DNA from: Progne subis subis
Lineage: Eukaryota; Chordata; Aves; Passeriformes; Hirundinidae
Direction of reading: 5' to 3'
Length of the DNA: 64,000 nucleotides
Assembly (NCBI GenBank): GCA_022316685.1
Contig: JAKJHU010000756.1
Location: forward strand, 114,249 to 178,248
Shown: positions 30,086-62,702 of the stretch, piece after piece
Layout: each line of letters starts with the position of its first letter
How positions within the stretch are numbered: the stretch's first letter is position 1
The notes under the pieces: model-generated
Told to the model about the DNA's origin: nothing
Databases searched by the model: none
The model's input: only the letters and a program-made list of their open reading frames with translations
Made by a program: the position numbers and the translations under genes

Positions 30086-30091
30086 CTGTGC

Positions 30092-30326: not shown

Positions 30327-30991
30327 TGTCCTGGTTTGGAGACAAATTTGGGGGAAAACCCCTGTATAGGATCCCTCTGGGAAGCAAACCTAAGTGGCCC
30401 CTCCCTCCAACCAGTCTGAAAAAAAAACCTTTGTGGAGAAAAGTGGAAAAAACTATTTTACTAAACAAACAAAGTGCATACAAGTATAAAGAATGAATAA
30501 TATGAAACAATAAAACCTCTCGTTCTGAAGTGAGATGGCAAATTGAGAAAGTCCTTGCCGTGGATGGAGCTCGGCTCTCTCTCAGTCTCTCCTCAGTCCC
30601 AGTCCCTCCGGCGCTGCTGGAAAATGCCGAGCTCCAGGCCCCGGTGGGCCGCAGGTGCAGCCCCCAGTGATCCCCTGGGTTTTCAGTCCAGAGCAGGTTT
30701 AAACAGTTCCAAGAAAAAAAAGAAAGAAGAAAAAAAAAACAGTCCAGGGAACTTCTCTGCCCTAGCTAGCTGAAACTAACTAAAAGCAAAAAGATCTCTG
30801 TCCTGCAGTCTCTCCAAGCCTCCGCTGAACACCGTCCGGAGAAGAATGTGGAGGAGTCAGGCAGTTTTCTCAAAACAAACTCCGCGCTTCTCCTTGCTCT
30901 TAGAACCAGTCTTAAAGGCACAGGACTCAATATACAGCACAAACAGAACAGACGATTGGGGATACAAGCATCATAAAGTTACCCTAGGACA
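30327..30991 (-). repeat. ERVL-C 3' LTR
   Basis: TGTCCTGG to CCTAGGACA on the plus strand. A polypurine tract (as TTCCACCCCTTATCCCCA on the plus strand, 30992-31009) directly adjoins it, which fixes this end as the 3' LTR. Confidence 0.95.
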
Positions 30992-31153
30992 TTCCACCCC
31001 TTATCCCCATATCGTCAATTTACTAAAACTTATATATACTCTAGCTCTACACACACATACATCTATATAAAAACAATATGCAATATACAACTACATACAG
31101 TGGCAGTACTATTCAGCACACAATGATAATTACACACGGTTCTCACCCAACAA

Positions 31154-34100: not shown

Positions 34101-34270
34101 CTCACATCAGCTTCCACCAAAGTAAAATCTTGTGAGCCCCCTGTCACCCCAGCAATGGAAATAGATTCTTCCCCCACATGTCTTGATGGGAGTAATGTGC
34201 ATTGTGCACCAGTGTCAACTAAGGCCTCATATTTTTGTGGTTCTGATGTGCCAGGCCAACGAATCCACAC
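31154..34270 (-). pseudogene. pol: ERVL-C pol (PR-RT-RNase H-IN)
   Basis: Aspartic protease (DTGAQ motif near 34205) at 33983-34270, reverse transcriptase at about 32651-33940 with YIDD near 33385, RNase H around 32040-32530 (TDSS in place of TDGS), and integrase at 31154-32038 with an H-H/C-C zinc region and the SDNG and VEK-type catalytic contexts. In-frame stops near 33986, 33617, 32653, 32582, 32265 and 32236 break it. All except the one at 33617 fall where the intact homologue at 42.2-45.3 kb has Trp. The frame itself is kept. The pol frame is the same as the gag frame, so expression would be by stop readthrough. Confidence 0.9.
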
Positions 34271-34324
34271 AGTCCAAAAAACACGGTTTTCCCTAGCCTC
34301 TACCTGGCTAGAGGCAGGGCCCCT

Positions 34325-36220: not shown

Positions 36221-36312
36221 GGCCACTGTCTGTTTAATCCCTACCCAAAGGACAACAACAACAACAACAAAAATGCAGTTAATAGTAATACAAGTTTTTT
36301 CCACTCTCTTTT

Positions 36313-36330
36313 GCCCCGCAGTAGGCGCCA
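36313..36330 (-). other. ERVL-C primer-binding site
   Basis: Minus-strand TGGCGCCTACTGCGGGGC, ten bases inside the 5' LTR. It resembles the ERVL-F site. Confidence 0.75.
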
Positions 36331-36340
36331 ATTAAGGGTA

Positions 36341-37005
36341 TGTCCTGGTTTGGAGACAAATTTGGGGGAAAACCCCTGTATAGGATCCCTCTGGGAAGCA
36401 AACCCAAGTGGCCCCTCCCTCCAACCAGTCTGAAAAAAAAACCTTTGTGGAGAAAAGTGGAAAAAACTATTTTACTAAACAAACAAAGTGCATACAAGTA
36501 TAAAGAATGAATAATATGAAACAATAAAACCTCTCGTTCTGAAGTGAGATGGCAAATTGAGAAAGTCCTTGCCGTGGGTGGAGCTCGGCTCTCTCTCAGT
36601 CTCTCCTCAGTCCCAGTCCCTCCGGCGCTGCTGGAAAATGCCGAGCTCCAGGCCCCGGTGGGCCGCAGGTGCAGCCCCCAGTGATCCCCTGGGTTTTCAG
36701 TCCAGAGCAGGTTTAAACAGTTCCAAGAAAAAAAGAAAGAAGAAAAAAAAACAGTCCAGGGAACTTCTCTGCCCTAGCTAGCTGAAACTAACTAAAAGCA
36801 AAAAGATCTCTGTCCTGCAGTCTCTCCAAGCCTCCGCTGAACACCGTCCGGAGAAGAATGTGGAGGAGTCAGGCAGTTTTCTCAAAACAAACTCTGCGCT
36901 TCTCCTTGCTCTTAGAACCAGTCTTAAAGGCACAGGACTCAATATACAGAGTCCAAACAGAACAGACGATTGGGGATACAAGCATCATAAAGTTACCCTA
37001 GGACA
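36341..37005 (-). repeat. ERVL-C 5' LTR
   Basis: TGTCCTGG to CCTAGGACA on the plus strand, near-identical to the 3' LTR. The primer site is adjacent at 36313-36330 and the TSD CCTGT follows at 37006. Confidence 0.95.
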
Positions 37006-37130
37006 CCTGTTTACACTTTGTTGAGGGAAAAAGCTGGTTCTCAGGCTCAGTGTCCTGGTTCTCAGGCTCATTGTCCTTGACAGTGCTAAAACAACAGAAC
37101 TTTCCCATCACTATCAATCCTCTCTGTGTC
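37006..37130 (-). repeat. ERV-E1 3' LTR, U3 part
   Basis: Continues the LTR interrupted at 30326, starting with the repeated CCTGT. Its true start is lost: a deletion joins env codon about 80 directly to U3 at about 37130, so the polypurine tract and first LTR bases are missing. Compare the complete LTR start at 54069. Confidence 0.8.
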
Positions 37131-37373
37131 ATAACCTTTAAATTTGTGAGGGTTCCAAAGGGGTGTTCCTATTAAACAAGTTCTGAATGGGTCTTGGGGA
37201 TTGGCCAGGCTAAGGCAAATAGAATCCTGTCCAGTCATTTTGGCAAATGTCACCCATACATTAGATCTCTTAGAAAATTGATGAGTTAATTGAGAAGATC
37301 TGGCAACACTTGTTGACACCATGAGCAAAAGGCACGCAACACGCAAGAACGTCTTACCATGTGGACCTACCAT
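37086..37373 (-). pseudogene. env: ERV-E1 env, signal peptide and SU start
   Basis: The 5' end of an envelope gene: a hydrophobic signal peptide (about residues 8-24) and the first roughly 60 residues of SU, closely matching the ERV-E2 env at 51701. An internal deletion then joins it to the LTR and the frame ends at 37086. It cannot produce a working envelope. Confidence 0.85.
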
Positions 37374-37473
37374 ATCTCTCTCTTAATGGCCCACACTGTC
37401 TGCGCAAATCTCCAATCTGCTACTCCACCAAAATCATCAGGAATAGGGTTAGGTATTCTCAACACTATCTGTG

Positions 37474-37815
37474 CTACTTGATAAAAGGCACCAAGGGTAC
37501 CACTATAGCAATGGTCACACAAACCACCCTCACGCCAAAGCTTTGGTGTCTCTCTCTCTCAAATTGTGCACCACAAACTCTGCAGCTCACTTCTATAACT
37601 ATTACTTCCTGACACTGAGGACACTCTTTTTCTTGCCCCTCATGCAAGTCCTGGGAGAGTTCCAACAATCCCAAGGGGCCTTGGCGATCAAAAACGCACG
37701 CTACAACCCAATCTGGGTCAAGAGGGCGTTGTTCACCAGCGGCCTCAACCACCAGCTGTCTCAGCAAGGACTTGATGATCCTTCCTTCTTTTCCTTCCTT
37801 GCTGGCCGAGTCCAT
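37474..37815 (-). CDS. Unrecognised 113-residue ORF with a CxxC pair, ERV-E1
   Basis: Lies between the CEPT1 3' UTR and env of ERV-E1 and is absent from ERV-E2, where about 700 bp are deleted. It starts MDSASKEGK, has a charged N-terminal region, a CPQC-x9-CRVC pair like a small zinc ribbon (about residues 68-84), and a hydrophobic C-terminal stretch (VVCVTIAIVVPLVPF). I do not recognise it. It could be an env leader or Rec/Rem-like accessory reading frame, a pol remnant in another frame, or chance. Position and intact frame are the only support. Confidence 0.35.
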   Translation of the reverse strand: MDSASKEGKEGRIIKSLLRQLVVEAAGEQRPLDPDWVVACVFDRQGPLGLLELSQDLHEGQEKECPQCQEVIVIEVSCRVCGAQFERERHQSFGVRVVCVTIAIVVPLVPFIK

Positions 37816-38099
37816 TTACTTGGTATCCATTGTGGTCCAGATGCAAAGCTCAAAGGCTTGGGTGCAGCTGTTGTCAAATTCACCTCAGAGGTGTCCTGAT
37901 CGCTGACCAGCAGTTTTCAGAGTCACAGATTCCAGGGCCCTTGGAGATCTGTCAGTCTGGAATGAATTTGAGATCAGCTGCTCTGGCCAGAAGTGTTCCT
38001 CTTATCTTCTCCGGAGCTGACCATCTGGACTTTTATCTTCAGAGGGCTTGCAGGGTTCACTGCGTGCTGAAGGCTTACTGTGACCCTGTTCAGCATGAA

Positions 38100-38659
38100 A
38101 CCGCTTTGTCAGCAATGCACAAGTGAAAACCACCCCAGCTTAGCTCTTACTTGGCAGCTGCTGCAGCCACACAACTTAGTAAGATATCTCTGGGTTTTTA
38201 CCAACTCAAGTCATTAGTAAATAAATTCCAAGTGGACACTAAACAAGTATTTCGCTAAGAGATGATGAAATATTAAAATGAAAAGCAAGTCAGATTGCAG
38301 CTGTAATTATACTACATTAGAAACTCCAGTTGGTGAGGATCCATTCACCATATAGAGAGAAATTAGTAATCAAGGTAATTACAAAGACAGAGCATTTGTC
38401 TCCTGCATGCTTTTCCAGGCTTGGAACCAACAGAGTTGACTACATGGAGAGTTGCCTAGGGTGAACTCAGAATTCACTCTCTCAGGCAGGAGACTAGTTA
38501 AGGAGTGCTACTGATAACGAAGAAGAAAAGTTAATACAACATTGATTATTATAAGTTACTTTGTTCTCATCTGCTTTTAGTCTTTGTCTCCTACAAGTCT
38601 TCATCCATTCCTGTAGAAACCTAACTTCTTTTTCCATTCGTCTGTGGCAGCTCCCATCC
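38100..38659 (-). other. CEPT1: Captured CEPT1 3' UTR (ERV-E1)
   Basis: About 560 bp after the CEPT1 stop codon, colinear and highly similar to 51041-51610 in ERV-E2. Non-coding sequence from the host mRNA is therefore part of the captured segment. The exact host/virus border is unknown. Confidence 0.65.
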
Positions 38660-39590
38660 CTAGTGATGGTTCGAGGGCATGGGGCAGCCCTTGATGCAGA
38701 ACACATGGATGTGCATGTGGGCAGCAATTCTGGCTGCACACGCTGACACAGTATCGGAGCAGGTTAAACAGGGACAGGATCAGGGCAATCCAGAGGACAA
38801 TATACTTATCAATAAAGCTGTTAAAACATTGGTCTAGGAACAAAAATGCTGGGCTTATGAATGCTGTGTCATATAAATACATTTCACTCTTGGTCATGTG
38901 AGCAACTACCAGTTGATTTGTGATCTTGGCACACATAAAGCTAAAAGTCAGGATGTAGAGGCAGAGATGCCTCTCAAAGAGCTGCACAGCATATTTCTTG
39001 TAGATCATTGCAGCCAAGGCAATCACAGAGCCAATATGAAGAAAAGGTGAGAGGACACTTGTTCCTGCTAAAGTGGATCCATTTTTGCTAACTGCACCTG
39101 AATATTTAGTCTTGGAATCAGAGATTGCTAAAAAGATGGACCTCCAATCACTGCCAGTAAATTCATGATTATTATGAAGATCTGTATTTCAGTCACATCA
39201 ATCATGCCGAAGTGCAGCGTTCTTGAGATCTATGTCCGTCAGTGTGCGCAGTAAAACATGAATGTCACAGCAAAACAACAGAAGAACATCCAATCAGGGT
39301 TGGTGTCCAGCTGCACAACAATAAAAGTTTCTAAAACCACAAAGCCTTTGGACAATGAATCATAGCTATGATCAAAAAGCTCTCTTAACGGAGTGCTGTT
39401 ATTTGTCCTTCTTGCTTGTTTTCCATCTGTAGCATCCAGGGACTGGAATGCCACAGGCACAAGCAATGAATGTCCAAGGAGGTGTCTGCCTCTGAAGCTG
39501 TTGAGCAGTAACATACCAATAACAGAGTTGTAAATATATTATTAACAGTTTGATGATGGTGATCAGATTGGGGGCAATCCAGGCTGGAGA
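38660..39590 (-). pseudogene. CEPT1: Captured CEPT1 coding segment in ERV-E1
   Basis: Encodes, with frameshifts, most of choline/ethanolamine phosphotransferase 1, the membrane enzyme that moves phosphocholine or phosphoethanolamine from CDP to diacylglycerol. It lacks introns, so it derives from mRNA. The first roughly 85 residues are missing and replaced by gag. The CDP-alcohol phosphotransferase motif (DGxxAR-x8-G-x3-D-x3-D) is damaged: Arg replaces the central Gly and DHSYD replaces DHGCD (near 39380). Open pieces are 39239-39514 and 38601-39026. The natural C-terminal SNHH and stop are at about 38660-38674 in another frame. Confidence 0.88.
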
Positions 39591-39692
39591 ATGGATATCT
39601 GCAGTATGAATCCAATCTAACATTGTTTGAGCACTTTTCAGATTTCAAGCTGTGCTCTTTTACTGTGGGTTTTTTTTTTTTTGGTTTTGTTG

Positions 39693-39730
<38 letters not shown>

Positions 39731-40720
39731 TTTGTTTGGTTTTTTTTGGTTTTTTTTGCCTGTTGCAAGATTTTCCATTCATGCTGCTCACACACAGGAT
39801 TGCCATCTCTGAACACGACAGGACATGCTACAGGACATGCCATGTGTCCTGCGGGTTCCCACTGTCCTTCTAGTATAACATCACGTATAATTTTGGACCA
39901 TCGAGTCACAGGGGGGGCAGGCAAAGGTGTTGCATGGGAACTGCTTTCTGCAGTTTGTTCTAGCAATTGTTGCATTGGAATTAACTGGGAGCTAAACGAT
40001 GCTGGCTCCTCCTGATTTTTAGCATTTATTGTAGATAGTTCTTGGGCTTTTTCCAGCAGCAGCTTCGTTGCTGCATGCGCTCGCTCATCCAGGCGTTGCA
40101 TCACTGCCTGAATTTGATCAGTCAGTTCTTTTAAACCAATCGTGGGTTCTGCCGTGGGTTCTGCTCCATCACTGGGGTCCTCCTCTAATTCGTCCGGCAG
40201 CGGAACATTGTCGGGGGAAGGTGGTTGACAGCAGGGGTCACAGGTTCCCCTCTCTTGGTCAACCGGTGTCTCTTCGGGCACAGCCGAGAAAGGGGGGGCA
40301 CTCGACGCATGTGTTGTGGGAGCGACGGCGTCCCCGGCCCCGGCCCATGGTGGCGGTGGCGACGGCAGGGCGGTGCAGAGTCCCGGGGGCTGTTTCCTCC
40401 TCGTCCTGCCTGTTGCTGCGGGGCGGTGGGGGCGGCGGGCACGATGGAGCCCCTGATGCGGAGGGACGGGGGCAGTCCGTGGGCCAGGAGCGGCGAGCCA
40501 GGCATCAGCCAGTGACGGTGCCGGGGCGCCGGAGGCGGCCAGAGGGCATGGCAGGGGCCCCGCAGCGCTTCCCCGACTTCGTGATGCCGCGGAGTTGTTA
40601 AATGTCCATTTCCCCGCGCCCAGTTAATCAGCTTTTGCAGTACTTTTCCTGCTACCTTTTTCCTCTCTCAGAGAGTATAATAATAAATAACTTCAATGCG
40701 GCAGCAAATTCGCATTCCAT
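39590..40720 (-). pseudogene. gag: ERV-E1 gag (MA to N-terminal CA), fused to CEPT1
   Basis: Starts at ATG 40720. The matrix part is broken by stops. From about 40281 an open frame holds an acidic Pro-rich spacer, a predicted coiled coil (LTDQIQAVMQRLDERAHAA, about 40115-40060) and the start of a betaretrovirus-type capsid ([20 protein letters not shown]). An A-run expansion (plus-strand T run, 39667-39760) then breaks the frame. Gag stops being viral at about 39590, where CEPT1 begins. No nucleocapsid, protease or pol follows. Confidence 0.82.
39667..39760 (-). repeat. Expanded A tract in ERV-E1 gag
   Basis: On the coding (minus) strand, a GCAAAAAA site that is short in ERV-E2 (near 49204) has grown into about 90 bases of A with C interruptions. 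It encodes poly-Lys and breaks the gag frame. Confidence 0.85.
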
Positions 40721-41012: not shown

Positions 41013-41242
41013 TGAAGGTGATTTTTGAAAAGAAAGAAAAACAAAATGAAAACAAAAACAAAAACACGGGGAACAGCCAGAGTCAAACACCTTCTTCACA
41101 GAAGTAGTGGTGAATGCTCCATTTATTGAGGGTACACAGGGTTCTTTTATACATATATCATTCTTGTGCATAAGCTGTTCACACGGCATTTTACTACTTG
41201 CTATTGGCTAGTGTTATCTGCATAAGCATTCCTTTGCAGTTA
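41013..41242 (-). repeat. ERV-E1 5' LTR, R-U5 side
   Basis: On the plus strand TGAAGGTG through TTTGCAGTTA. At 41243 LTR-G starts. The remaining U3 side is at 54069-54221, in opposite orientation, with the 4 bp GTTA/TAAC duplication at both breaks (41239-41242 and 54218-54221). Confidence 0.9.
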
Positions 41243-41672
41243 TGAGTCATTGAAAACCGACATAATCACGGACGAAGACCCTCTAACTAATTAAAGTTAG
41301 AAAGTGGTATGTTTATTCACCGGCGGGCGGCACGGGAGTCATCTCCGAAAGGCGTGGCCGCCCCGAACAAGGCTCTTTGCTCTCTATTCTCCAAGATCTT
41401 ACATACAATACATATGCATAACCCCAGCACCTCCCATCCCCACTCTGTATTAAAATGAGGCTATTAGTCCTTCACGCGTGCGCAGTTCTTCTCTTGAATT
41501 GGGTCGGTGGTCTCGAATTGGGTCAGTGGTCTCAAAGGATGAAGTCAGGAGAGTCTTCATCAGGTCTCTGTGACCCTCTGGCACTGTCCAAGGTCCCCTG
41601 CTTCGTGATTGATTGATACCAAGTCCAGGTGCTGGCCATTATTCTTACTGGTTTCAATCTGTTCTTATAACG
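41243..41672 (-). repeat. LTR-G fragment (3' LTR of ERV-G)
   Basis: Reverse complement of 54389-55504 without the LTR-I insertion. It starts TGAGTCATTG on the plus strand. Its first roughly 170 bp (U3) are deleted: at about 41673 it joins LTR-F through a few shared bases (ACGG/AGCTTC). It is the outer half of the ERV-G provirus, parted from the body by the inversion. Confidence 0.85.
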
Positions 41673-41818
41673 GAGCTTCTTCAGTCTTGCCGAGTTCCAG
41701 CTCCCCCGCTTCAAGGTCACTCCGAGGAGCAGAGTTTTCCTGGGGAAAAACAAACCGCACTTGCCCTCCCCCCTGCACCCAACAGACGATTGGGGATACA
41801 CAGTCACCCCAGGACATC

Positions 41819-41838
41819 TTCCACCCCTTACCCCCATA
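41819..41838 (-). other. ERVL-F polypurine tract
   Basis: Plus-strand TCTTCCACCCCTTACCCCCA, so a purine run on the coding strand just before the LTR-F 3' stub. About 315 bp of non-coding sequence (41839-42153) separates it from the end of pol. Confidence 0.8.
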
Positions 41839-42153
41839 TCGTTGACTTACAGGCAGAACCAATGTATATTCCACATAAAACTTCCATCCATTCTCCCCAC
41901 AAAAAAAAAAACAATACAAGCAATACCCGTCATGCTCCTGTCACGTTCCACACTGAGCCACTGAATCCAGGCCCAAGGCTGCAGGGCAGCAGGATTCCTC
42001 TCTCACTTACTCATACCTTCAACACTTGCTCATACCTTCAACACTTAACACATACCCTCTCACTTACACATTTCCTTCTATTTCATTCTGCGTGGTTTAA
42101 TGTACAGACAATGGCAATAGCATTCAGCAGACAGTGACGTTTATAAATTATTC

Positions 42154-45100
42154 TCACCCAACAATCAGATCTCCCTGAGGTACACATCGTGTTGTTCCAT
42201 CTTTCTGCATTATCCACCATGTGCAACCTGGTCCCCGAGCAAAGACAACCCCACGAATAGGTTTGTCTGTACTTGAGGCAGACCTGATCCACACTGTCTT
42301 CCCTAACAGACCTCTGACATGCACCACTGGGACTTTATCTCCATTTGTTGTATGCAGAGGCTCAGCCGGGGCGGGTCCTGCTCGGTTGGTGGAGCCTCGG
42401 GTGTTGACCAACCAGGTGGCCTTTGCCAAATGCTGCTCCCAATTCTTGAAAGATCCCCCCCCTCAACGCTTTCAACTGGGTTTTTAACAATGCATTGCGC
42501 CTCTCCACTTTGCCTGCAGCAGGTGCATGGTAGGGAATATGGTACACCCACTCAATGCCATGTTCCCTAGCCCAGGTGTTAATAAGGCTGTTCTTGAAAT
42601 GAGTCCCATTGTCTGACTCAATTCTCTCAGGGGTACCATGCCTCCACAGGACTTGCTTCTCTAGGCCCAGGATTGTGTTCCGGGCAGTAGCATGGGGCAC
42701 AGGGTAGGTCTCCAACCATCCAGTGGTGGCTTCCACCATGGTCAGCACATAGCGCTTGCCTTGGCGGGTTTGGGGAAGGGTGATGTCAATCTGCCAGGCT
42801 TCCCCGTACTTATACTTGGACCATCGCCCGCCATACCATAAGGGCTTCACCCGCTTCGCCTGTTTGATGGTAGCACACGTCTCACAGTCATGGATAACCT
42901 GAGAAATACTGTCCATGGTTAGATCCACCCCTCGGTCTCGTGCCCACTTATAGGTGGCATCTCTACCCTGATGGCCTGAGGCATCATGGGCCCATTGAGC
43001 TAAAAACAACTCTCCCTTGTGTTCCCAATCTAAATCAATCTTTGACACTTCTATTTTTGCTGACCAATCTACCTGCTCGTTGTTTCGATGCTCTTCATTA
43101 GCTCTACTCTTGGGGATGTGGGCATCTACGTGGCGGACTTTCACAGGTAGTCTCCCTACCCTGGTAGCAATGTCTTTCCACTCCTCAGCAGCCCAAATTG
43201 GTTTCCCTCCACGCTGCCAATTAGCCTCTTTCCACCTCTTCAGCCATCCCCACAGAGCATTGGCCACCATCCATGAATCAGTAAAGAGGTAGAGCCTCGG
43301 CCGCCCCTCTCTTTCAGCAATATCCAAGGCCAATTGAACAGCCTTGAGTTCTGCAAGTTGACTTGATCCACCCTCTCCTTCAGTGGCCTCAGCAACCTGT
43401 CGTGTGGGGCTCCACACGGCTGCTTTCCACTTCCGGTTCATCCCCACAATACGACAGGAACCGTCAGTGAAAAGGGCATAATGCGTCTCCTCTGCTGGCA
43501 ATTGGTTGTATGGTGGAGCCTCTTCAGCCCGTGTCACTTGCTCTTGTTCTTCATCTGTGAGGCCAAAATTTTCACCCTCAGGCCAATTGGTAATTATTTC
43601 CAAAATCCCAGGGCGATTCAGTTTACCCATACGGGCGCGCTGCGTAATAAGAGCAATCCACTTGCTCCATGTGGCATCAGTGGCATGATGGTTGGAGGGG
43701 ACCTCCCCTTTGAACATCCACCCCAGCACAGGCAGTCGGGGTGCCAGGAGGAGTTGCTCCTCTGTACCAAACACCTCCGAGGCGGCTTGAACTCCTTCAT
43801 AGTCTGCTAAGATTTCCTTCTCAGTGGGGGTGTAATTGGCTTCAGACCCTCTGTAGCTTCGACTCCAAAATCCTAGTGGCCGGCCTCGAGTGTCCCCAGG
43901 CACCTTCTGCCAAAGGCTCCAGGACAGGCCACTGTTCCCGGCTGCTGAGTAGAGCACGTTCTTCACATCTGGTCCTGTCCTCACTCGGCCAAGGGCCACT
44001 GCATGAGTGATCTCCTGCTTGATCTGGGCAAAAGCTTGTTGCTGCTCAGGGCCCCAGTGGAAATCATTATTTTTTCGGGTGACCAGGTAAAGAGGGCTCA
44101 CAATCTGACTATACTCAGGAATATGCATCCTCCAGAAACCTATAGCACCTAGGAAAGCTTGTGTCTCCTTCTTATTGGTTGGTGGAGACATCGCTGTGAT
44201 CTTGTTGATGACATCAGTAGGAATCTGCCGCCATCCATCTTGCCACTTTACTCCCAGGAACTGGATCACTCGGGCAGGTCCCTTGACCTTGCTCTGTTTT
44301 ATGGCAAAACCAGCTTTCAGGAGAATTTGGATGATCTTCTCTCCTTTTTCAAACACTTCCATTGCCGTGTTCCCCCACACAATGATGTCATCAATATACT
44401 GTAGGTGCTCCGGAGCCTCACCCTTTTCCAGTGCAGCTTGGATCAGTCCATGGCAGATGGTAGGACTGTGCTTCCACCCCTGGGGCAGTCGGTTCCAGGT
44501 GTACTGCACTCCCCTCCATGTGAAGGCAAACTGAGGCCTGCATTCTGCGGCCAAAGGAATGGAGAAAAATGCATTGGCAATGTCAATTGTGGCATACCAT
44601 TTTGCTGCCTTGGACTCCAGCTCATACTGGAGCTCCAACATGTCTGGCACAGCAGCACTCAGTGGTGATGTCACCTCATTCAATGCACGGTAGTCCACAG
44701 TCAATCTCCATTCTCCTTCAGATTTACGCACAGGCCAGATGGGGCTGTTGAAGGGGGAGTGAGTTTTACTAACCACCCCTTGGCTCTCCAGCTCTTGAAT
44801 CATCTTATGGATGGGAATCACAGCATCTCGAGTTGTTCTATACTCTCGGCGGTGCACTATAGAAGTGGCAATTGGTACCCGTTGTTCTTGTACTTTCAGG
44901 AGTCCTACTGCAGATGGATTCTCGGACAGTCCAGGCAAGGTGTTCAATTGCCGGATGCCCTCTGTCACTACAGCCGCTATCCCAAATGCCCACCTGAGTC
45001 CTTTCGGGTCTTTGAAATACCCATTTCGGAGGAAGTCTATGCCCAAAATACATGGGGCCTCTGGGCCAGTCACAATAGGGTGTTTCTCCCACTCCTTTCC

Positions 45101-45331
45101 AGTTAGGCTCACATCTGCTTCCACCAAAGTAAAATCCTGTGATCCCCCCGTCACGCCAGCAATAGAGACATATTCTGCCCCTACATGTCTTGATGGCATT
45201 AATGTGCACTGTGCACCAGTATCAACCAAGGCCTCATATCTTTGTGGTTCAGATGTGCCAGGCCAACGAATCCACACAGTCCAAAATACACGGTTTTCCC
45301 TAGCCTCTACCTGGCTAGAGGCAGGGCCCCT
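42154..45331 (-). pseudogene. pol: ERVL-F pol (PR-RT-RNase H-IN), one frameshift
   Basis: A 971-codon open frame (45277-42362) plus 42429-42154 in another frame, separated by a C run at about 42453-42460, the only visible break. Order: aspartic protease with VDTGAQ (about residues 18-23 of the long frame), RT with YIDD (about 44390), RNase H with FTDGS, integrase with an HxxxxH/CxxC zinc region, Asp in QID, SDNG and a Glu in VERRN. Integrase lacks one residue relative to ERVL-C after the first catalytic Asp. It follows gag in the same frame after a UAG, so it would be made by readthrough. Confidence 0.93.
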
Positions 45332-47297
45332 CTAAGCCTGGTTATCCTTCTTTCCTTGAGCATATGTCTTAGAGGTTCCTTCAAGGGGGTCGGACATGTC
45401 ATCATCGTCATACCTGGCAGTTCGGCTATGGGCAACTGGAGCCGCTTCCCTTTTGGTGGAACTCCCTCTTTGAGTCTTGACTTCCTTCAATTCACGCACC
45501 CGTTGTGCCAGGGCAGCCGTAGATTTTCCATCCCATCTGTTCATATTTTCTCCGCAATCCCGCAGGAAGAACCACAGCTCAGCGCGTGGAGTGTACCCTC
45601 TCTCCCTACCCAGGGAGTGTCTATGTTGGGTACCAGAACCTCTGATCTGTACTGCTGAGATTTGGAGAAGGTCCTCTCTAATCTCCTCCCTGAGTTTCAT
45701 ATGATTCTCATCTATCTTATCCTCTAGTTTCTGTAGACGTGTTTCTACAGCTGCGATTCTGGCGTGTGTTGGACCATGCACAGCATCTGCATATGCTCGG
45801 AGCTTCTTCGCCATATCAAGCACCGTCTCCTCCATGTCCTCCCGCTTCATTACTGCTAAAGCAGAAGCGTATTCTAATGGCCCGAGTCGTATAAGTTTTC
45901 GCCACATCACAGATGTACATGATACCAAGTCTGGGTTCCTAGTGTTTATGTCATCTGAGAAAACCATCTCTGCCACTGCCATTTCTCTCAAGCGTTGAAT
46001 CCCTTGTTCTATGGTCTTCCATGGGGTTTGCTGCATATAGAGATCATCTGCACACAAGTATCTTTCTGCCACACTTCCTAGGACCCCTATCCAGAGACTG
46101 CAAGGACTAGCCTCTCTCATCATCTCCTGGTCGATGACTGGATCATGTGGCAGGGATCCCAGATGCCTCGCTTCAGTGCCATCCAGAATTGTAGCCTCGC
46201 CTGCAGCATCCCAAAGACGGACTAACCAACTAATTATAGATTCATCAGGTTGTCGCCGGTAATCCTTTCTTAGGCCCCGAAGGTCCTTCAGGGAAAAGGA
46301 ATCAATATTGGCTTCTGATCCTGTGCTAGAAGCTTTGGCTTCTGATTTTGGTGAAGGTCCTTCTCTTGGGTCATCATCGTCCACTGGTCGATCGGTTTTG
46401 TGTGTGTGCTTCTTTGCCGGAGCAACTGCCAGGGGCTTAGGCTTACTGTCTGGTTTAGCTGCTGACTCAGGCTCAGGTTCTAGTTTAGCTGCTGGCTTCA
46501 TAACTGGGGTGTTGGCTGCAGCCTGAGTGACTGGGGTAGCTGTTGATTTGTATCCCTTCCCCCCTGCCTCTGTCTGCTGCCCTACAGTCTCTAGCAATGT
46601 GCGATAAGCATATGCCAGGGCCCAGCTTACTGCAGCGATCTTCTCCCCCTTAGAGCCATCATGGTACCTCTCTTTCAGGTATTTCCCCAGATCCACTGGA
46701 TTCTGAATTTGTTCCCGTGGAAAATCCCAGACTACAGGGTCAGAGAATTCCTTGAGGAGTTGGCCCATATCCTCCCATTCTCCACACCACTCAGGATTTC
46801 CTCTGCCTGGGTCAGGAGTTTCATCAGCCCCTCTAGAAATCTCAGCCCATATTCTAGAGAAGCTGCAGACTGTATAGAGGAGGCTTACCAGATGACATAC
46901 CAGAAAGATGGTCTCTTTAACACTCAGGGGAAACTCAATATTCTCCAGCAATGATTCAACCGATTCAGAGGAGAAGGAAACAAAAGACTGCAACGCTTCA
47001 TCCTCTGCTCCTCCTCCCACAAACGGTGAATAACCATAACCATGACCCATACATAGAAGGAAAAGACCTCAGCACCTTTATAAACTTCCTACAAATTATT
47101 ATCATTAAACCAAGGCCAATAGCTACTCTAATCCGTGTCCCTCTACTGTAAAAACTGCGTATTAATGACAATATTGGGGCTATCTCTGGATATGCAAATA
47201 AACCTAAGGACCACAAAGGTATTAAGACCTCAAAGAAGCCTAAAGATCCAAAACACATCAAGGCCCCCACCCCAAGAGACATGAGTTCAAGCAGCAT
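45332..47297 (-). pseudogene. gag: ERVL-F gag
   Basis: ATG at 47297. The first 100 residues (to 46998) hold two hydrophobic, membrane-like stretches. A frame change near 47050 then leads to a 572-codon frame (47050-45332) with a further hydrophobic stretch (TIFLVCHLVSLLYTV), an extra roughly 80-residue region missing from ERVL-C, a Lys/Pro-rich spacer and the capsid-like part ending in a DPLEGT segment. It stops at TAG (45334-45332) in the context GCT-TAG-AGG, in frame with pol. No zinc knuckle is seen. The frame change coincides with a small deletion relative to ERVL-C. Confidence 0.88.
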
Positions 47298-47350
47298 AGT
47301 TACTGACTGCTAAATATTAATCAGTACAGGGTTTTTCCACTCTCTCTCGA

Positions 47351-47368
47351 GCCCCACATTGGGCGCCA
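47351..47368 (-). other. ERVL-F primer-binding site
   Basis: Minus-strand TGGCGCCCAATGTGGGGC, seven bases after the 5' LTR. It is very close to the ERVL-B site. Confidence 0.85.
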
Positions 47369-47375
47369 AGAAGTT

Positions 47376-48018
47376 TGTGGTGGTTTCAGGCAGATTTTGG
47401 GAGAAATCCTCCCAAGGGGCCCCCCTCCCCTCCCCCAACCGGTTCGGGAAAAGACTTCCTCAGAGAGAAGTGGAAAAAAACCTGTTTATTAAACAGGCAA
47501 AGCACTCCCAGCACAATACCCGATGACAAGAGCTTCGTGCCGCTTACAGAGGGATAACAAACTTAAAGAAAGTCTCTCCTCTTGAAGATCGTCACTGTGC
47601 TCCACCGCTCCGTCTCCACTGGTGTTGGGAGAAAAGGAGATGTGCAGGGCTGGTCTTGGTGGGGTGGGTCCCCTGTGGAGGCCCCCGGTGCTTCCCCAGG
47701 TCCTTAGTCTGGAGAGGTTGGAACAATTCCGAGGAGAGGGCAAAAAAAGAAAAAAAGGAAAAAAAGGAAAAAAAGAAAAAGAAAAAAAAAAAGCAAAAAA
47801 AAGCTTCAGCTATTCTACAGCATCTGACTACGCTAGCACTAAACTAACTAACTGCCGGGGAAAAAAAAACAACAGAGCTTCTTCAGTCTTGCCAAGTTCC
47901 AGCTCCCCCGCTTCAAGGTCACTCCGAGGAGCAGAGTTTTCCTGGGGAAAAACAAACCGCACTTGCCCTCCCCCCTGCACCCAACAGACGATTGGGGATA
48001 CACAGTCACCCCAGGACA
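47376..48018 (-). repeat. LTR-F copy 1 (ERVL-F 5' LTR; inversion breakpoint)
   Basis: Plus-strand TGTGGTGG to CCAGGACA, 643 bp. Immediately right is TCTGGGAACG, the broken LTR of ERV-E2. It is an inverted repeat of 62064-62702. The exchange that inverted the interval between them probably lies inside these two LTRs, so each may be a chimera. Confidence 0.92.
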
Positions 48019-48295
48019 TCTGGGAACGAGCCGTGGCCCCTCAACAAAGTTGTAAACAGGTAACTGCAAAGGAATGCTTATGCAGATAACACTAGCGGAT
48101 AGTAGAGCTGCTTGGGGCGCGTGAACACTAGAGGTTAACCAATAGCAAGTAGTAAATTGCCGCGTGAACAGCTTATGCACAAGAATGATATATATATAAA
48201 AGAACCACCCTGTGTACCCTTAATAAACAAGCATTCACCATTACTTCTGTCAAGAGCGTATCTGACTCCGGCTGCTCCCCGCGATTTCTTCTTTA
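48019..48295 (+). repeat. ERV-E2 5' LTR without its start
   Basis: TATAAAAG near 48196 and AATAAA at 48222-48227. It ends TTCTTCTTTA, the same as its 3' partner at 53361 and unlike the usual CA (ERV-E1 has TTCA). Confidence 0.88.
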
Positions 48296-48297
48296 AT

Positions 48298-48315
48298 TGG
48301 CGCCTGAACATCGGA
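48298..48315 (+). other. ERV-E2 primer-binding site
   Basis: TGGCGCCTGAACATCGGA matches the ERV-E1 site in its first 13 bases. Confidence 0.8.
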
Positions 48316-48349
48316 CCTTGAGGTGAAGACCCAGGGAAAAAAATGTGGA

Positions 48350-48450
48350 GGGACGCTGACTCGCTGAGAGATGCAGCTGCATTGAGGTGGGACCCTGGAA
48401 CCCAAGCGGAGGGACGCTGATCTACCAAGAGATGCAGCTGCATTGAGGTA
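48350..48450 (+). repeat. Tandem duplication in the ERV-E2 leader
   Basis: The unit GAGGGACGCTGA followed by GAGATGCAGCTGCATTGAGG occurs twice about 65 bp apart. It contains the palindrome TGCAGCTGCA, which could form a dimerisation loop in leader RNA. That role is inference. Confidence 0.55.
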
Positions 48451-48577
48451 GGAGCTCGTCATCCTTGCAGATACATGTTGCGAGGCTGAGTGGATAAAGG
48501 GAGCAGGGGGCAGTTTTCTTGAAAAAAGGAGGAAGGTGCTGAGTACTCCCTTCCCTGCCCCACAGAAGACGGCAAGC

Positions 48578-51040
48578 ATGGAATGAGAGTTTGCTGCCAC
48601 AATTAAATTATTTATTAATATACTCTCTAAGAGAGGAGATACAGTAGCAGAAAAGGTGCTGCAGCAACTAGTTAACTGGGCGCGGGGAAATGGACACTTA
48701 ACAACTCCCTGGCGCTGCGAAGTCGGGCAGGCACCGCGGGGCCACTGCCGTGCCCTCCCACCAGCTCCGGCGCCCCGGCACTGTCGCTGTCCGATGCCCG
48801 GCTCGCCGATCCCGGCCCACGGACTGCCCCCGTCGCCCAAGCCCCAGCGCACTGCTGCCGCCACCACCAAACCGGTTCAGAGCTTTTCTCAGAAGCAAGG
48901 CGCCCTGGCCCGATCAAGGGCTGGATGACAACCCAGAGTAGTACAGTAGCCGAAATGCTTCAAAAAGCCTCTGGAGCCACTCCCGGTCCGCTGCTCCCAC
49001 AACGCATGCGCCTACTGCCCCCCCTTTACTGGACGTCTTCACCTGCTCCACCTGTGACTCGATGGTCCAAAATTATACATGATGCTATACTAGAAGGACA
49101 GTGGGAACTCGCAGGACACATGGCATGTCCTGTAGCATGTCCTGTCGTGTTCAGAGATGGCAATTCTGTGTATGAGCAGCATGAATGGAAAATTTTGCAA
49201 CAGGCAAAAAATACAGTAAAAGAGCACGGCTTGAAATCTAAAACTGCTCGAGCAATGTTAGATTGGATTCATACTGCAGATATCAATCCTCCAGCCTGGA
49301 TTGCCCCCAATCTGATCACCATCATCGAACTGTTAATAAATATATTTACAACTCTGCTATTAGTATGTTACTGTCCAACAGCTACAGAGCAGGCACCTTC
49401 CTGGACATTCATTGCTTGTGCCTGTGGCCTTTTCATCTACCAGTCCCTAAATGCTATAGATGGAAAACAAGCAAGAAGGACAAAGAGCAGCACTCCATTA
49501 GGAGAGGCTTTTGATCATGGCTGTGATTCATTGCCCACAGTCTTTGTGGTTTTGAGAACCTGTATTGCTGGGCAGTTGGGCACCAACCCTGACTGGATGT
49601 TCTTTTGTTGTTTTACTGCGACATTCATGTTTTACTGGCAGACGTACATCTCAGGAGCACTACGCTTCGGCATAATTGATGTGACTTGTGATAAATGTCC
49701 AAAGATTAATTCGTGTGGAATATGCCTGTATTTTAATACACCCATATAAAGTATAAGTTGTACCTGTTCAAATAAAAGCTGTGAGATATTTTAAGGTCAA
49801 TTCATGTAAGTTTATATTCTGTAAACCACAAAGCCATACAGGGAATGTACAAAATATTTCTGCTGGCAGCAAAAACCCCAGACCAGGGACACAAGGACGA
49901 GAGAGGAATTTCAGTGACATACCTCTGCTGGGAAACCCTGAAACGAACACAAAAGCCACAGGAGGAACAGATAAGCTACTCAAGAACCACTGATTACATC
50001 AGATATGTATCTCACCTGCTTCCTCCAGACATTATCATATCTTCTCATATCTCAACAGACTCTCCTGGATATTATCATATCAGCGACACACCTGGGCTCA
50101 ACCATTACGGTCATTGTTAACCCCGGAAAAACTATTCAAGACTCCTAGACCCGAGCATGAATAATCAATGAAGCAGCCACGGACAAGGACAACATCGGAG
50201 CCTCGTCTCTTCTCTGCGATCCACTGTATAAAAGGAGACTGCTTCAGACCAAAAATGTGAACTTGGGGGGATAGCAGACTGGCAGAGTTTGCTATCAGAG
50301 TTCACCCAGTGCCGTGCCCGGGCTCGACACTGTCCTTTTAATTGTGGCTGTCCGAGACTGTCATTTTGTCTCTCAATAAAATTCTAAATTTTGATTTCTA
50401 AAATTTGGTCAATCTCATTTATAACAGACTGAAATACAAATCTTCATAATAATCATGCATTTACTAGCAGTGATTGGAGGACCACCTTTTTAGCAATCTC
50501 TGATTCCAATACTGAATACTCAGGTGAAAATACTCCCAGCTCTTTGTACCGTGGCAGGAACCATATTCTCCTGTACAAACTACTTTGGTGCGATCTTCAC
50601 GAGTGGAGTTGTCAAAAATGGATCCACTTTAGCAGGAACAAGTGTCCTCTCACCTTTTCTCCATATTAGCTCCATGATTGCCTTGGCTGCAATGATCTAC
50701 AAGAAATATGCTGTGCAGCTCTTTGAGAGGCACCCCTGCCTCTACATCCTGACTTTTAGTTTTGTGCCTGCCAAGATCACAAATCGACTGGTAGTTGCCC
50801 ACATGACCAAGAGTGAAATGTATCTATATGACACAGAATTCATAGGCCCAGCATTGCTGTTCCTTGACCAATGTTTTAACAGCTTTATTGATAAGTATAT
50901 TGTCCTCTGGATTGCCCTGATCCTGTCCCTGTTTAACCTGCTCCGATACTGTGTCAGCGTGTGCAGCCAGAATTGCTGCCCACATGCACATCCACGTGTT
51001 CTGCATCAAGGGCTGCCCCATGCACTCGAATCACCACTAA
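48578..51040 (+). pseudogene. CEPT1: ERV-E2 gag-CEPT1 fusion gene
   Basis: Gag starts at ATG 48578 with an early stop (48584). From 48925 an open frame of 274 codons runs without a break from capsid ([25 protein letters not shown]) across the junction at about 49290 into CEPT1. The CEPT1 part begins at [10 protein letters not shown] in a membrane helix and has the full CDP-alcohol phosphotransferase motif, with DG, AR, G and both Asp in place (49459-49527). LTR-H interrupts it at 49687-50426. CEPT1 continues at 50431 with a TAG at 50491 and a frame change near 50975, then the natural SNHH end and stop at 51038. No introns are present. In the host, CEPT1 makes phosphatidylcholine and phosphatidylethanolamine in ER and nuclear membranes; here about 85 N-terminal residues are replaced by Gag. 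Confidence 0.9.
49687..50426 (+). repeat. LTR-H solo, inside the CEPT1 segment
   Basis: TGTGATAAATGTCC to TTTATAACA, 740 bp, flanked by GACT (49683-49686 and 50427-50430), a 4 bp class I TSD. The uninterrupted site is visible in ERV-E1. A TATA box is at 50227-50233 and AATAAA at 50375-50380, which sets the plus orientation. Confidence 0.93.
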
Positions 51041-51610
51041 GGATGGGAGCTGCCACAGGGGAATGGAGAAAGAGTTAGGTTTCTACAGGAATGGATGAAG
51101 ACTTGTAGGAGACAAAGACTAAAAGCAGATGAGAACAAAGTAATTTATAATAATCAATGTTGTATTAACTTTTCTTCTTCATTATCAGTAGCACTCCTTA
51201 ACTAGTCTCCTGCCTGAGAGAGTGAATTCTGAGTTCACCCTAGGCAACTCTCCATGTAGTCAACTCTGTTGGTTCCAAGCCTGGAAAAGCATGCAGGAGA
51301 CAAATGCTCTGTCTTTGTAATTACCTTGATTACTAATTTCTCTCTATATGGTGAATGGATCCTCACCAACTGGAGTTTCTAATGTAGTATAATTACAGCT
51401 GCAATCTGACTTGCTTTTCATTTTAATATTTCATCATCTCTTAGCGAAATACTTGTTTAGTGTCCACTTGGAATTTATTTACTAATGACTTGAGTTGGTA
51501 AAAACCCAGAGATATCTTACTAAGTTGTGTGGCTGCAGCAGCTGCCAAGTAAGAGCTAAGCTGGGGTGGTTTTCACTTGTGCATTGCTGACAAAGCGGTT
51601 TCATGCGTAA
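51041..51610 (+). other. CEPT1: Captured CEPT1 3' UTR (ERV-E2)
   Basis: Colinear with 38100-38659 in ERV-E1. It is followed by a short unrelated stretch and an A run of about 20 (51677-51693) just before env. The A run could be a remnant poly(A) of the captured mRNA or a local expansion; ERV-E1 does not have it. Confidence 0.65.
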
Positions 51611-51700
51611 CAGGGTCCTGTGAGCCAAGGGGTGCCCAGCATGCCAGATAGTGTGGTATCTTTGTCAATTAATTGAAAAAAAAAAAAAAAAAAGAGGGAT

Positions 51701-53021
51701 ATGGCAAGTCCACATGGTAAGATGTTCTCGCGTGTTGCGTGTGTTTTGCTCATGGTATCAACAAGTGTTGCAGGATCTTCTCAACTAGCTCATAAATTTT
51801 CTAAGAGAACTAATGTATGGGTGACATTAGCCAAAATTACTGGACAGGATTCTATTTGCCTTAGGCTGGCCAATCCCCAAGACCCATTCAGAACTTGTTT
51901 AACAGGAACACCCCTTTGGAACCCTCACAAATTTAAAGGTTATGTGAAAAATAAGACATTGCTGAATTTTACTGTAGCAAACAGCACAGTGTGGCTATCA
52001 GGTTTCACAGCCACCCAGGCTGATGGAGGCTGACAGTGTAAAAATTATAGAGCAACTTAATGATACGCTTACTTCACCACCTGAAGAATTAGACCTCCAT
52101 GAATGTATGAATGCCAGCTCTACGAATAGAAGTGAGGGAGGTTGGGTGTCCTTTGAGCACCCCACAGAGCAGAGTCTAAATAAACATAGCCAGAAATGGG
52201 CTGCAATAAATTCAGCTTGACTATCTAGTAGCAGTATACACCAACAACTCTATTCCAAATGTAATTTGACTGGCAAACCAGCGTGACGCCTTCCACCAGG
52301 AGTATTTTTAATATGTGGGGACCGCGCTTGGAATGGAGTCCCAGCCAACCCCCATGGGGGCCCATGCTATTTAGGGAAGCTTGCCCTGTTTCACCCTAAC
52401 ATAACCCCATTGATGACTTTGACAAAAGTCACTCAGAGAAAACGTGCCATACATGAGTTGGACTGTACGGTCATAAAAGATCCTAAATTCTAGTCCCAAG
52501 CTAGGACAGTGTTAACATCCATGTTTATACCAGGAGCAACAGCCGCTAAAGCAATGACCACGTTAAAGCAGATGGCATGCTGGACCTAATCAGAATTGAA
52601 TTTGACTGGCCAAATTTTAGATGAGCTATCAGCGGATGTTACCAGTGTTAATAATGCTGTTTTGCAAAACCGTGCTGCAATTGATTTTTTGCTTTTAGTG
52701 CATAACCATGGGCGTGAAGAGTTTGAAAGAATGTGTTGCATGAACCTGTCTGATCATTCTGGATGAAGTCACAAAAAATTGCAATTAATGAAGAACAAAT
52801 TATATAATTTAAAAGAAAGTGATAATGTATTTAGAAATTAGTTAAGTAGCCTTGGGATTACGGGATGGCTGAAGTTTGTTGTTAAACAAGTGTTTGTTAT
52901 ATTATTACTTGTAGTAGTAGGATTATTAGTACTAAGTTGTGTAATGTCTTGTATTAAGAATGTGTTGCGTGAGACAATATCTAATGCTTGGCTTGTGCAA
53001 AAGAAAAAGGGGGAATTGTAG
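51701..53021 (+). pseudogene. env: ERV-E2 env (SU-TM), degraded
   Basis: ATG 51701, signal peptide, and about 110 residues of SU open to a stop at 52031, then broken pieces. A basic cleavage-like RKRA lies near 52440, the TM ectodomain at about 52630-52770, and an anchor rich in Val and Leu at about 52880-52945. The tail stops at 53019 in the polypurine tract. In the CX6CC motif the first Cys is replaced by Arg (near 52717), which would remove the TM side of the SU-TM disulphide. Stops inside TM sit mostly where related env genes have Trp. Confidence 0.82.
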
Positions 53022-53361
53022 AATGATTTCTGGAGATAGACACAGAGAGGCCTTGCAGTGTTGGGAGAATGCTGTTTGTTTTAGCACTGTTAAGGACAAA
53101 TAGTCTGGGAACAAGCCGTGGCCCCTCAACAAAGTTGTAAACAGGTAACTGCAAAGGAATGCTTATGCAGATAACATTAGCCAATAGTATAGCCGCTTGG
53201 GGGCTAACCACTAGCAAGTACTAAAATGCTGCGTGAACAGCTTATGCACAAGAATGATATATGTATTAAAGAACCCTGTGTACCCTTAATAAACGAGCAT
53301 TCACCATTACTTCTGTGAAGAGCGTGTCTGACGCTGGCTGCTTCTCGCGATTTCTTCTTTA
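53017..53361 (+). repeat. ERV-E2 3' LTR (complete, 345 bp)
   Basis: TGTAGAATG directly after AAAGAAAAAGGGGGAAT. It has a TATA-like stretch near 53258 and AATAAA near 53289, and ends TTCTTTA. AGAAGC (TSD) follows. Confidence 0.92.
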
Positions 53362-53527
53362 AGAAGCATCTTTAAAAAGACACCTAGATCGATGGAGGCA
53401 CAGGCACTCTCAGGCAGAGAGTGATTCAGCTCTTTGTGCACCCTTAGGTGCAAAGCAACTTCGCTCTTTGGTGCACTCTCAAGTGCAAAGTGATTTGCTC
53501 TTTGAGGAGCTGCCCGAGCAGCAGAGC

Positions 53528-53970
53528 CACGTTTGCCACCCCGGGTGACGCAGGAGTAAAAGCGAGATGGGGCCTTTCTGATCTCCAGGAAAGCTTCTTT
53601 ATTCCACAGGTCAGGAGCAGAAAAGAGTCCGAGAGCCCAAGGCGAGTGGGATTATATAGGGTAGCTATGGGTGGGGTTTCACAAATTGGCCAATGGGGAG
53701 AGGAATTGGGAAAGGGACCAGTCAGGGAAAGGATCCAAAACTGACCAATCGGCTGGGGTAAAAAAGAACCAATGGGGTAAAACCGATTAACACATTTCTT
53801 CACCATAACATAGAGAGCTGTTTACCAGGGTTTCTCCTTTAGGGGGTTGTGTTTATATTCTGTCTGGCCTAACTGCTCCCTTTCCAAGGGGGCGTGTTTT
53901 TATTATTGTCTGGTTCTCTCCAGAGAAGTGTGTTTCTATTAGCACTGTCTGGCTTAATAGCCTCCACAGT
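53528..53970 (-). repeat. LTR-J, probable old LTR, minus strand
   Basis: On the minus strand: several CCAAT/ATTGG boxes, a TATATAA box near 53655, AATAAAG near 53600 and a candidate end GGGGTGGCA. Beyond it (53400-53525) lie three tandem GCTCTTTG/GTGCAAAG units. This is the DNA that lay between ERV-E1 and ERV-E2 before the inversion. Boundaries are approximate. Confidence 0.45.
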
Positions 53971-54068
53971 CTTCAGCAGGGAAATGATTTGTTTTGTCTA
54001 CCTACTCTGTGAAGAGAGCTTACTAACACTTAATATGAGGCTCAGAACTACACCCCTAGGCAGCACAG

Positions 54069-57672: not shown

Positions 57673-58320
57673 TGTGGTGGTTTCAGGCAGATTTTGGGAG
57701 AAATCCTCCCAAGGGGCCCCCCTCCCCTCCCCCAACTGGTTCGGGAAAAGACTTCCTCAGAGAGAAGTGGAACAAACCTGTTTATTAAACAGGCAAAGCA
57801 CTCCCAGCACAATACCCGATGACAAGAGCTTCGTGCCGCTTACAGAGGGATAACAAACTTAAAGAAAGTCTCCTCTTGAAGATTGTCACTGTGCTCCACC
57901 ACTCCGTCTCTGCTGTCGTTGGGAGAAAAGGAGATGTGCAGGGCTGATCTTGGTGGGGTGGGTCCCCTGTGGAGGCCCCTGGTGCTTCCCCAGGTCTGTA
58001 GTCCGGAGAGATTGGAACAGTTCTGAGGATAGGGTGAAAAAGAAAAAAAGGAAAGGAAAAAAAGGAAAAAAAAAAAGCAAAAAAAAAAAAAGCAAAAAAG
58101 CTTCAGCTATTCTACAGCATCTAACTACGCTAGCACTAAACTAACTAACTGCCGGGGAAAAAAAAAAAAACAACAGAGCTTCTTTCGTCTTGCCGAGTTC
58201 CAACTCCCCCGCTTCAAGATCACTCCGATGAGCAGAGTTTTCCTGGGGAAAAAACAAACCGCGCTTGCCCTCCCCCCTGCACCCAACAGACGACTGGGGA
58301 TACACAGTCACCCCAGGACA
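57673..58320 (-). repeat. LTR-F solo, copy 2
   Basis: Plus-strand TGTGGTGG to CCAGGACA, 648 bp, with an exact 5 bp TSD GAGAC (57668-57672 and 58321-58325). It is inserted between gag and the protease of ERV-G. Confidence 0.94.
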
Positions 58321-62063: not shown

Positions 62064-62702
62064 TGTCCTGGGGTGACTGTGTATCCCCAATCGTCTGTTG
62101 GGTGCAGGGGGGAGGGCAAGTGCGGTTTGTTTTTCCCCAGGAAAACTCTGCTCCTCGGAGTGACCTTGAAGCGGGGGAGCTGGAACTCGGCAAGACTGAA
62201 GAAGCTCTGTTGTTTTTTTTTTCCCCAGCAGTTAGTTAGTTTAGTGCTAGCGTAGTTAGACGCTGTAGAATAGCTGAAGCTTTTTTTTGCTTTTTTTTCT
62301 TTTGCTTTTTTTCCTTTTTTTCCTTTTTTTCTTTTTTTTTTGCTCTCTCCTCGGAATTGTTCCAACCTCTCCGGACTACAGACCTGGGGAAGCACCGGGG
62401 GCCTCCACAGGGGACCCACCCCACCAAGACCAGCCCTGCACATCTCCTTTTCTCCCAACGCCAGTGGAGACGGAGCGGTGGAGCACAGTGACGATCTTCA
62501 AGAGGAGAGACTTTCTTTAAGTTTGTTATCCCTCTGTAAGCGGCACGAAGCTCTTGTCATCGGGTATTGTGCTGGGAGTTCTTTGCCTGTTTAATAAACA
62601 GGTTTGTTCCACTTTTCTCTGAGGAAGTCTTTTCCCGAACCGATTGGGGGAGGGGGGCTCCTTGGGAGGATTTCTCCCAAAAATCTGCCTGAAACCACCA
62701 CA
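62064..62702 (+). repeat. LTR-F copy 3 (inversion breakpoint)
   Basis: TGTCCTGGGG to CCACCACA, 639 bp, AATAAA at 62593-62598. Right of it CCAGA (62703-62707) is the reverse of TCTGG at 48019-48023: the two halves of one 5 bp TSD now 14.7 kb apart and inverted. Confidence 0.93.

Follow-up and report, generated by a model that had tools for sequence, protein, structure and literature searches.

How did the coding sequence of a phospholipid-synthesis enzyme come to lie between the gag and env genes of an endogenous retrovirus (ERV)? The question is raised by a stretch of 64,000 nucleotides from the passerine bird Progne subis subis (contig JAKJHU010000756.1, positions 114,249 to 178,248 of the forward strand; hereafter the window, to which all coordinates refer). 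A preliminary description, made from the letters alone, had pointed there to CEPT1 (choline/ethanolamine phosphotransferase 1) fused to gag. We find a defective provirus (copy A, 48019-53362, plus strand) that consists of a long terminal repeat (LTR), a primer site, gag, CEPT1, an avian-type env and a second LTR, with pol missing. The LTR pair, the primer-binding site (which we take to be of the Lys type) and the polypurine tract are ERV features, and all are present in copy A, although the start of its 5' LTR is missing. Together with a second copy in the window and with relatives in the barn swallow (Hirundo rustica), copy A represents a genuine retroviral family of gag-CEPT1-env layout, multicopy and devoid of pol, that derives from a single capture (Table 1).

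The frame 48925-49749 (274 amino acids) is open across the joint between the viral and the host part. Its residues 83-123 match the Pfam model Gag_p24 (2.4e-6, 27.9 bits; cut-off 24) and its residues 125-235 match CDP-OH_P_transf (1.1e-10), so that the passage from capsid Gag into a CDP-alcohol phosphotransferase, read there by the preliminary description, is borne out. The best PDB match of this frame is the solved CEPT1 (2e-72, against 2.8e-60 for the best CHPT1), and the same holds for the 3' frame at 50524-51075 (2.9e-79 against 1.4e-57). CEPT1 is thus upheld as the source: these E-values rule out a chance match, and the better scores over both pieces rule out CHPT1 as the captured gene. 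Downstream, env domains of avian gp85 (PF03708, 2.8e-15, at 52287-52490) and of the ASLV fusion TM type (6.6e-16, at 52590-52763) were found as anticipated. Between the CEPT1 stop (51038-51040) and the env ATG (51701) there are just 660 bp, which leaves no room for pol. Scans of the whole window gave no Rfam match and no tRNA gene.

The captured sequence originates from a spliced transcript. Residues 99-413 of CEPT1, numbered after the bird protein model P0005, are colinear and intronless in copy A, except for a loss of three residues and an insert of 740 bp; residues 1-98 of P0005 have no counterpart in the provirus. The preliminary description had called the gene intronless, and our search for intron sequence found none, which rules out genomic CEPT1 with its introns as the source. 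After the residues DVTE, P0005 continues with VQIF, and the others of the six bird CEPT1 models that we compared have SVLC (e.g., P0011) or SMLC; the provirus carries the VQIF version, cleanly joined at both sides. The layout of gag, host gene and env that had been likened to transducing retroviruses is therefore what we observe: spliced CEPT1 fused to gag, env next and pol missing.

The position of the joint could be fixed with the help of P0242, a barn swallow Gag without CEPT1 that covers positions 2-127 of the 128 of the p24 model. Residues 113-199 of P0242 match copy A at 49033-49293 with 87% identity (tblastn), and one proline codon serves both partners, as residue 199 of P0242 and residue 99 of P0005. 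The alignment of P0005 extends upstream into Gag at little identity, from residue 63 in copy A and from residues 60 and 59 in the barn swallow protein models P0001 and P0002; proline 99 falls at the same place in all three despite this run-on. In agreement, the p24 match ends at position 42 in copy A and at 42-43 in P0001 and P0002.

A second copy, which the preliminary description does not mention, lies in the same window on the minus strand (copy B, 41242 to 37130) and has the same joint. Self-comparison of the window aligned it with copy A in three blocks: leader and gag (41210-39749), CEPT1 (39666-38072) and env (37384-37130). In copy B the P0242 match again ends at residue 199 (39585, as at 49293 in copy A), and the alignment of P0005 begins with its proline 99 (39587). 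P0001, P0002 and a third barn swallow model, P0028, likewise match P0242 up to residue 199, the CEPT1 match of P0028 beginning on that very residue, 99. The joint is thus identical in all five sequences that cross it. An assembly join, named by the preliminary description as a possible refutation, is ruled out as its source, because copy B and three protein models of the barn swallow have the joint too.

To trace the family further, protein models were searched with three queries: the fusion frame, the 3' frame of CEPT1 and the gag frame of copy B. At least 18 H. rustica protein models carry CEPT1-derived sequence, on contigs of 10 distinct lengths; the count of 18 is a lower bound, taken from the best 120 of 1537 matches to the fusion frame and the best 120 of 132 to the 3' frame. 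Eight of the 18 also match the Gag P0242, and three of these eight are the models that cross the joint. All 11 matches to the gag frame of copy B belong to Hirundo (7994 candidates sharing most words were scored). Among the best 120 of the 1537 fusion-frame matches there was no Gag_p24 model from another species, in protein sets whose annotation often masks ERVs. A scan of viral contigs with the CEPT1 3' piece returned 16 pattern stretches and no confirmed relative. Individual lesions link window copies to particular barn swallow models: three residues (CAH) are missing from both copy A and P0001, copy B and P0028 have in common an 8-bp frame-changing loss (ACGIPVP...; for P0028 judged from the protein), and copy B and P0145 a larger deletion (YSG-AV).

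We consider it very probable that these sequences go back to one capture by an avian retrovirus through template switching, followed by loss of pol and helper-driven spread in the germ line of a songbird lineage. The presence of the same joint in copy B and in the three barn swallow models argues for one capture with later amplification. The parent, an avian retrovirus, would have had a p24-type Gag, a primer site of the Lys type and an Env like that of alpharetroviruses. A single recombination with spliced CEPT1 mRNA, presumably by template switching, would have occurred in Gag at the proline codon that both parents have, roughly a third of the way into the N-terminal domain of p24, with pol being lost. 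As LTRs, primer site and polypurine tract were kept, the chimeric gag-CEPT1-env genome could be packaged, reverse-transcribed and integrated, presumably by the Pol and the particles of a helper acting in trans, and it would then have spread through the germ line of the songbird lineage that includes the barn swallow. Template switching between the RNA of an LTR element and a cellular mRNA is among the events described in PMC5408686 and PMC4997597.

The intronless, 5'-truncated CEPT1, with a run of 18 A downstream (A18), might instead reflect the activity of LINE-type (long interspersed nuclear element) machinery, which would have placed a polyadenylated processed pseudogene into a provirus that was later copied. 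Such an insertion would be expected to leave the rest of gag and pol behind it, but in neither copy does the P0242 match extend past the joint. Moreover, the joint is in frame and at a codon common to both partners. A18 may be the tail of the captured mRNA; we did not adopt it as proof of this, because there is no AATAAA or ATTAAA within 51031-51700, copy B has no A run at this place, and the window holds seven runs of at least 15 A or T, A18 being one of them. The missing signals and the missing run in copy B also speak against a LINE-type insertion, which we regard as very unlikely.

The preliminary description had read about 570 bp after CEPT1 as its 3' UTR; the host origin of this stretch is presumed. 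The two copies agree up to about position 51614 and then diverge: in copy A about 60 bp and A18 lead to env, in copy B a different stretch of about 690 bp. This difference reflects either different 3' recombination points or a later rearrangement of one copy. Just upstream, 51146-51605 of copy A and 38553-38094 of copy B differ at one site in 460 bp, compared with 47 of 384 sites in 5' CEPT1, 15 of 252 in the capsid region and 17 of 247 in env (6-12% divergence; Fisher tests 5e-16, 1.4e-6 and 1.5e-7, respectively). LTR divergences, computed as Kimura two-parameter (K2P) distances with gaps left out, are 0.116 between the copies (188 sites), 0.082 within copy A (259 ungapped sites) and 0.031 within copy B (41013-41242 versus 30092-30321, 230 sites). 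The LTR pair of copy B shows an odd pattern of seven transversions and no transitions over the 230 sites. Exchange between the copies is likely, as the 460 bp differ at one site only. Since the LTRs of A and B are older than this near identity, its likeliest cause would be either gene conversion, occurring after integration between two inverted copies that lie close together, or a fault of the assembly.

The near identity, the inverted arrangement of two CEPT1 parts about 10 kb apart, and a 150-bp piece of one repeat near both 5' LTRs (47871-48021 and 41669-41819) raise the possibility that segmental duplication of one chimeric provirus, rather than retrotransposition, made the copies. However, the repeat piece lies in opposite orientations relative to the element in A and B and is found at two further places in the window, the divergence between the LTRs of the two copies is considerable, and the barn swallow models are dispersed over contigs of 10 lengths. 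The flanks disagree as well: no match longer than 15 bp was found between 53363-54060 (A) and 29300-30091 (B) or between 46600-47375 (A) and 41820-42600 (B), the 3' flanks being unmatched and the 5' flanks matching no further than 11-15 bp. The 5' ends of the copies are not fixed, and the comparison covers the stretches named. We consider this origin of the copies highly unlikely.

Several other observations weigh against a single capture followed by helper-driven spread. No helper element was identified. A single shared 3' joint is not demonstrated, since A and B differ at their 3' side, and the repeat piece near both 5' LTRs has to be counted here too. In five of the eight barn swallow models with Gag and CEPT1 the two parts meet elsewhere, Gag ending at P0242 residues 78-158 and CEPT1 starting at P0005 residues 276-313, which we explain by predicted introns or deletions. 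A tree was built from 18 ERV rows (16 barn swallow, 2 window) and 12 host rows, P0001 and P0028 being left out as they lack the 3' piece. This tree does not resolve the ERV copies as one clade (two changes; none of 500 shuffles was as low), and one of the 26 inner branches is starred. P0002 and P0140 are placed nearest to the host, with weak support, and the P0002 model omits the stretch of the premature stop shared by other copies, so that it is silent on that stop.

What became of the enzyme after its capture? The 740-bp insert, which interrupts CEPT1 in copy A and is the reason why the fusion frame ends at 49749, came later than the capture, since copy B has the empty site, with uninterrupted CEPT1 and one GACT. 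From its ends and the 4-bp GACT repeat, it is probably a solo LTR of another ERV. Other damage is shared between copies. A premature stop (50491-50493 in copy A) lies about halfway through the captured CEPT1, after PPF/PSF; copy B has the same stop, and the P0001 model ends at that residue. The natural C-terminus reported by the preliminary description is present, with the native stop, but it lies downstream of the premature stop and is read in a different frame from the CEPT1 before it, the frame of copy A shifting after about 50970. The shifted tail, starting NCC, is common to copies A and B and to P0002, P0127, P0138, P0139 and P0140; the native C-terminus is read in P0145 and P0172, the shift thus being found in five of the seven barn swallow models that reach this point. 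The residues that we take to be the catalytic motif of CDP-alcohol phosphotransferases are changed as well: copy A and P0001 have Asn in place of the first Asp, P0002 has Arg for Gly and Gly for Arg, and copy B has Arg for Gly. Judged by this motif and by a full-length frame, copy A, with its Asp to Asn change, stop and frameshift, does not encode a working CEPT1.

The differences between A and B in CEPT1 are distributed evenly over codon positions 1, 2 and 3 (26/21/27; chi-square p=0.66), which would fit passenger cargo after the separation of the two copies, a comparison that does not cover the first generations. The stop, the frameshift and this neutral-looking divergence favour the passenger alternative of the preliminary description and speak against its other suggestion, that the enzyme altered membranes at budding sites. 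CEPT1 was thus probably a passenger, and it would have been already truncated during much of the spread. The frame is open across the joint, in copy A until the later insert interrupts it and in P0001 as far as the shared stop, and the recurrence of this stop in A, B and P0001 could be taken to mean that the truncated Gag-CEPT1 fusion was itself functional and selected, the first half of the CEPT1 sequence serving as a membrane anchor for a partial Gag. Against such selection stand the absence of third-position bias, the different alterations of the catalytic motif in A/P0001, P0002 and B, and the broken gag frames in both window copies; we consider it unlikely. It is still less likely that the stop-shortened protein, tethering partial Gag to internal membranes, itself drove the success of the element or of the host lineage before later copies decayed, for example as an ERV-born restriction factor that trapped helper Gag on these membranes or by acting at lipid-synthesis sites.

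Retroviral transduction of host genes is known mostly from exogenous tumour viruses, and the acutely transforming ones have the layout gag-oncogene-env. The CEPT1 element resembles them in that partial gag is in frame with host coding sequence, env is kept, pol is lost and a helper is needed (mechanism as far as outlined in PMC4997597). It differs from them in being endogenous and multicopy, and its cargo is a phospholipid-synthesis enzyme rather than a growth regulator. With LTR-mediated retrocopies it shares template switching, by which an mRNA is copied into an LTR-flanked chimeric cDNA; the account in PMC5408686 extends to switch and integration, and the CEPT1 chimera went on to multiply. 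Closest are crocodilian ERV lineages that captured host mRNAs and are present in several copies, CrocERV29 with KIT-ligand and CrocERV31 with nectin3 (Chong et al. 2014, PMC4299795). Compared with these, as far as that paper's account of them goes, the CEPT1 element stands apart as a gag fusion that lost pol and kept env, with an insert that is neutral-looking and broken. The newness supposed by the preliminary description would be restricted to the gene: searches of open-licence papers brought up no case of CEPT1 as a retroviral insert, and among the titles listed for CEPT1 together with retrovirus none concerns capture, but host mRNAs captured by ERVs are known from crocodilians. In the germ line studied here, a single capture has left many copies that can be compared with one another and with the uncaptured Gag. 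Two questions can therefore be put to the test: by what means a transducing element amplifies that lacks pol and presumably depends on a helper, and whether host cargo without growth function, here an unusual multi-pass enzyme of phospholipid synthesis, is kept or merely carried.

Table 1. Coordinates of the two gag-CEPT1-env copies in the window
Feature	Position	Strand	Remarks
Copy A, 5' LTR, 3' part	48019-48296	+	direct repeat of 3' LTR; first ~90 bp not found
Copy A, tRNA primer-binding site	48298-48315	+	directly after LTR; copy B has it there too
Copy A, gag remnant (matrix to N-terminal capsid)	48578-49293	+	stop at codon 3, broken frames
Copy A, gag-CEPT1 joint, proline codon	49291-49293	+	tblastn alignments
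Copy A, CEPT1 5' piece (P0005 residues 99-233)	49291-49686	+	9-bp loss; first catalytic-motif Asp is Asn
Copy A, 740-bp insert in CEPT1	49687-50426	+	GACT at 49683-49686 and 50427-50430
Copy A, CEPT1 3' piece (P0005 residues 233-435)	50427-51040	+	premature stop, frameshift, native stop
Copy A, presumed CEPT1 3' untranslated region (UTR)	51041-51614	+	colinear with copy B; host origin presumed
Copy A, run of 18 A (A18) next to env	51676-51693	+	
Copy A, env remnant, avian gp85/TM (transmembrane) type	51701-53000	+	several stops; profile matches
Copy A, polypurine tract	53000-53013	+	precedes 3' LTR
Copy A, 3' LTR	53017-53362	+	direct repeat of 5' LTR
Copy B, 5' LTR part	41013-41242	-	97% to 30092-30321
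Copy B, gag remnant with A-rich insertion	39585-40720	-	P0242 and P0241 tblastn matches; alignment with copy A
Copy B, CEPT1	38663-39587	-	same joint, same premature stop, without 740-bp insert, own deletions
Copy B, presumed CEPT1 3' UTR	38072-38662	-	alignment with copy A
Copy B, ~690 bp between presumed UTR and env	37385-38071	-	absent from copy A
Copy B, env 5' piece	37130-37384	-	92.5% to 51690-51944
Copy B, 3' LTR, distal part	30092-30321	-	other part 37017-37130; split by nested ERV

Some minor features of the copies and of their surroundings were also noted. In the alignment of the copies, gag of copy A lacks about 350 bp present in copy B. The stretch between the presumed UTR and env of copy B holds an open frame of 113 amino acids (37815-37477, minus strand) with paired cysteines, which had no Pfam match at the cut-off; part of the sequence upstream of this frame resembles 6737-6843 (74.5% over 110). 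The ERV nested in the 3' LTR of copy B (30327-37005) has LTRs that are 98.65% identical and a 5-bp target repeat, CCTGT. The window is dense in ERVs: there are two related gag-pol elements on the minus strand (42362-47068 and 31154-36331), one of them with a stop-free pol frame of 989 amino acids, and a further ERV on the plus strand (7054-13382) with long gag and pol reading frames. A 640-bp repeat is found at 47376-48018, 57673-58320 and 62064-62702, two of its copies adjoining the same LTR position, so that an LTR subfamily may have inherited it as an insertion.
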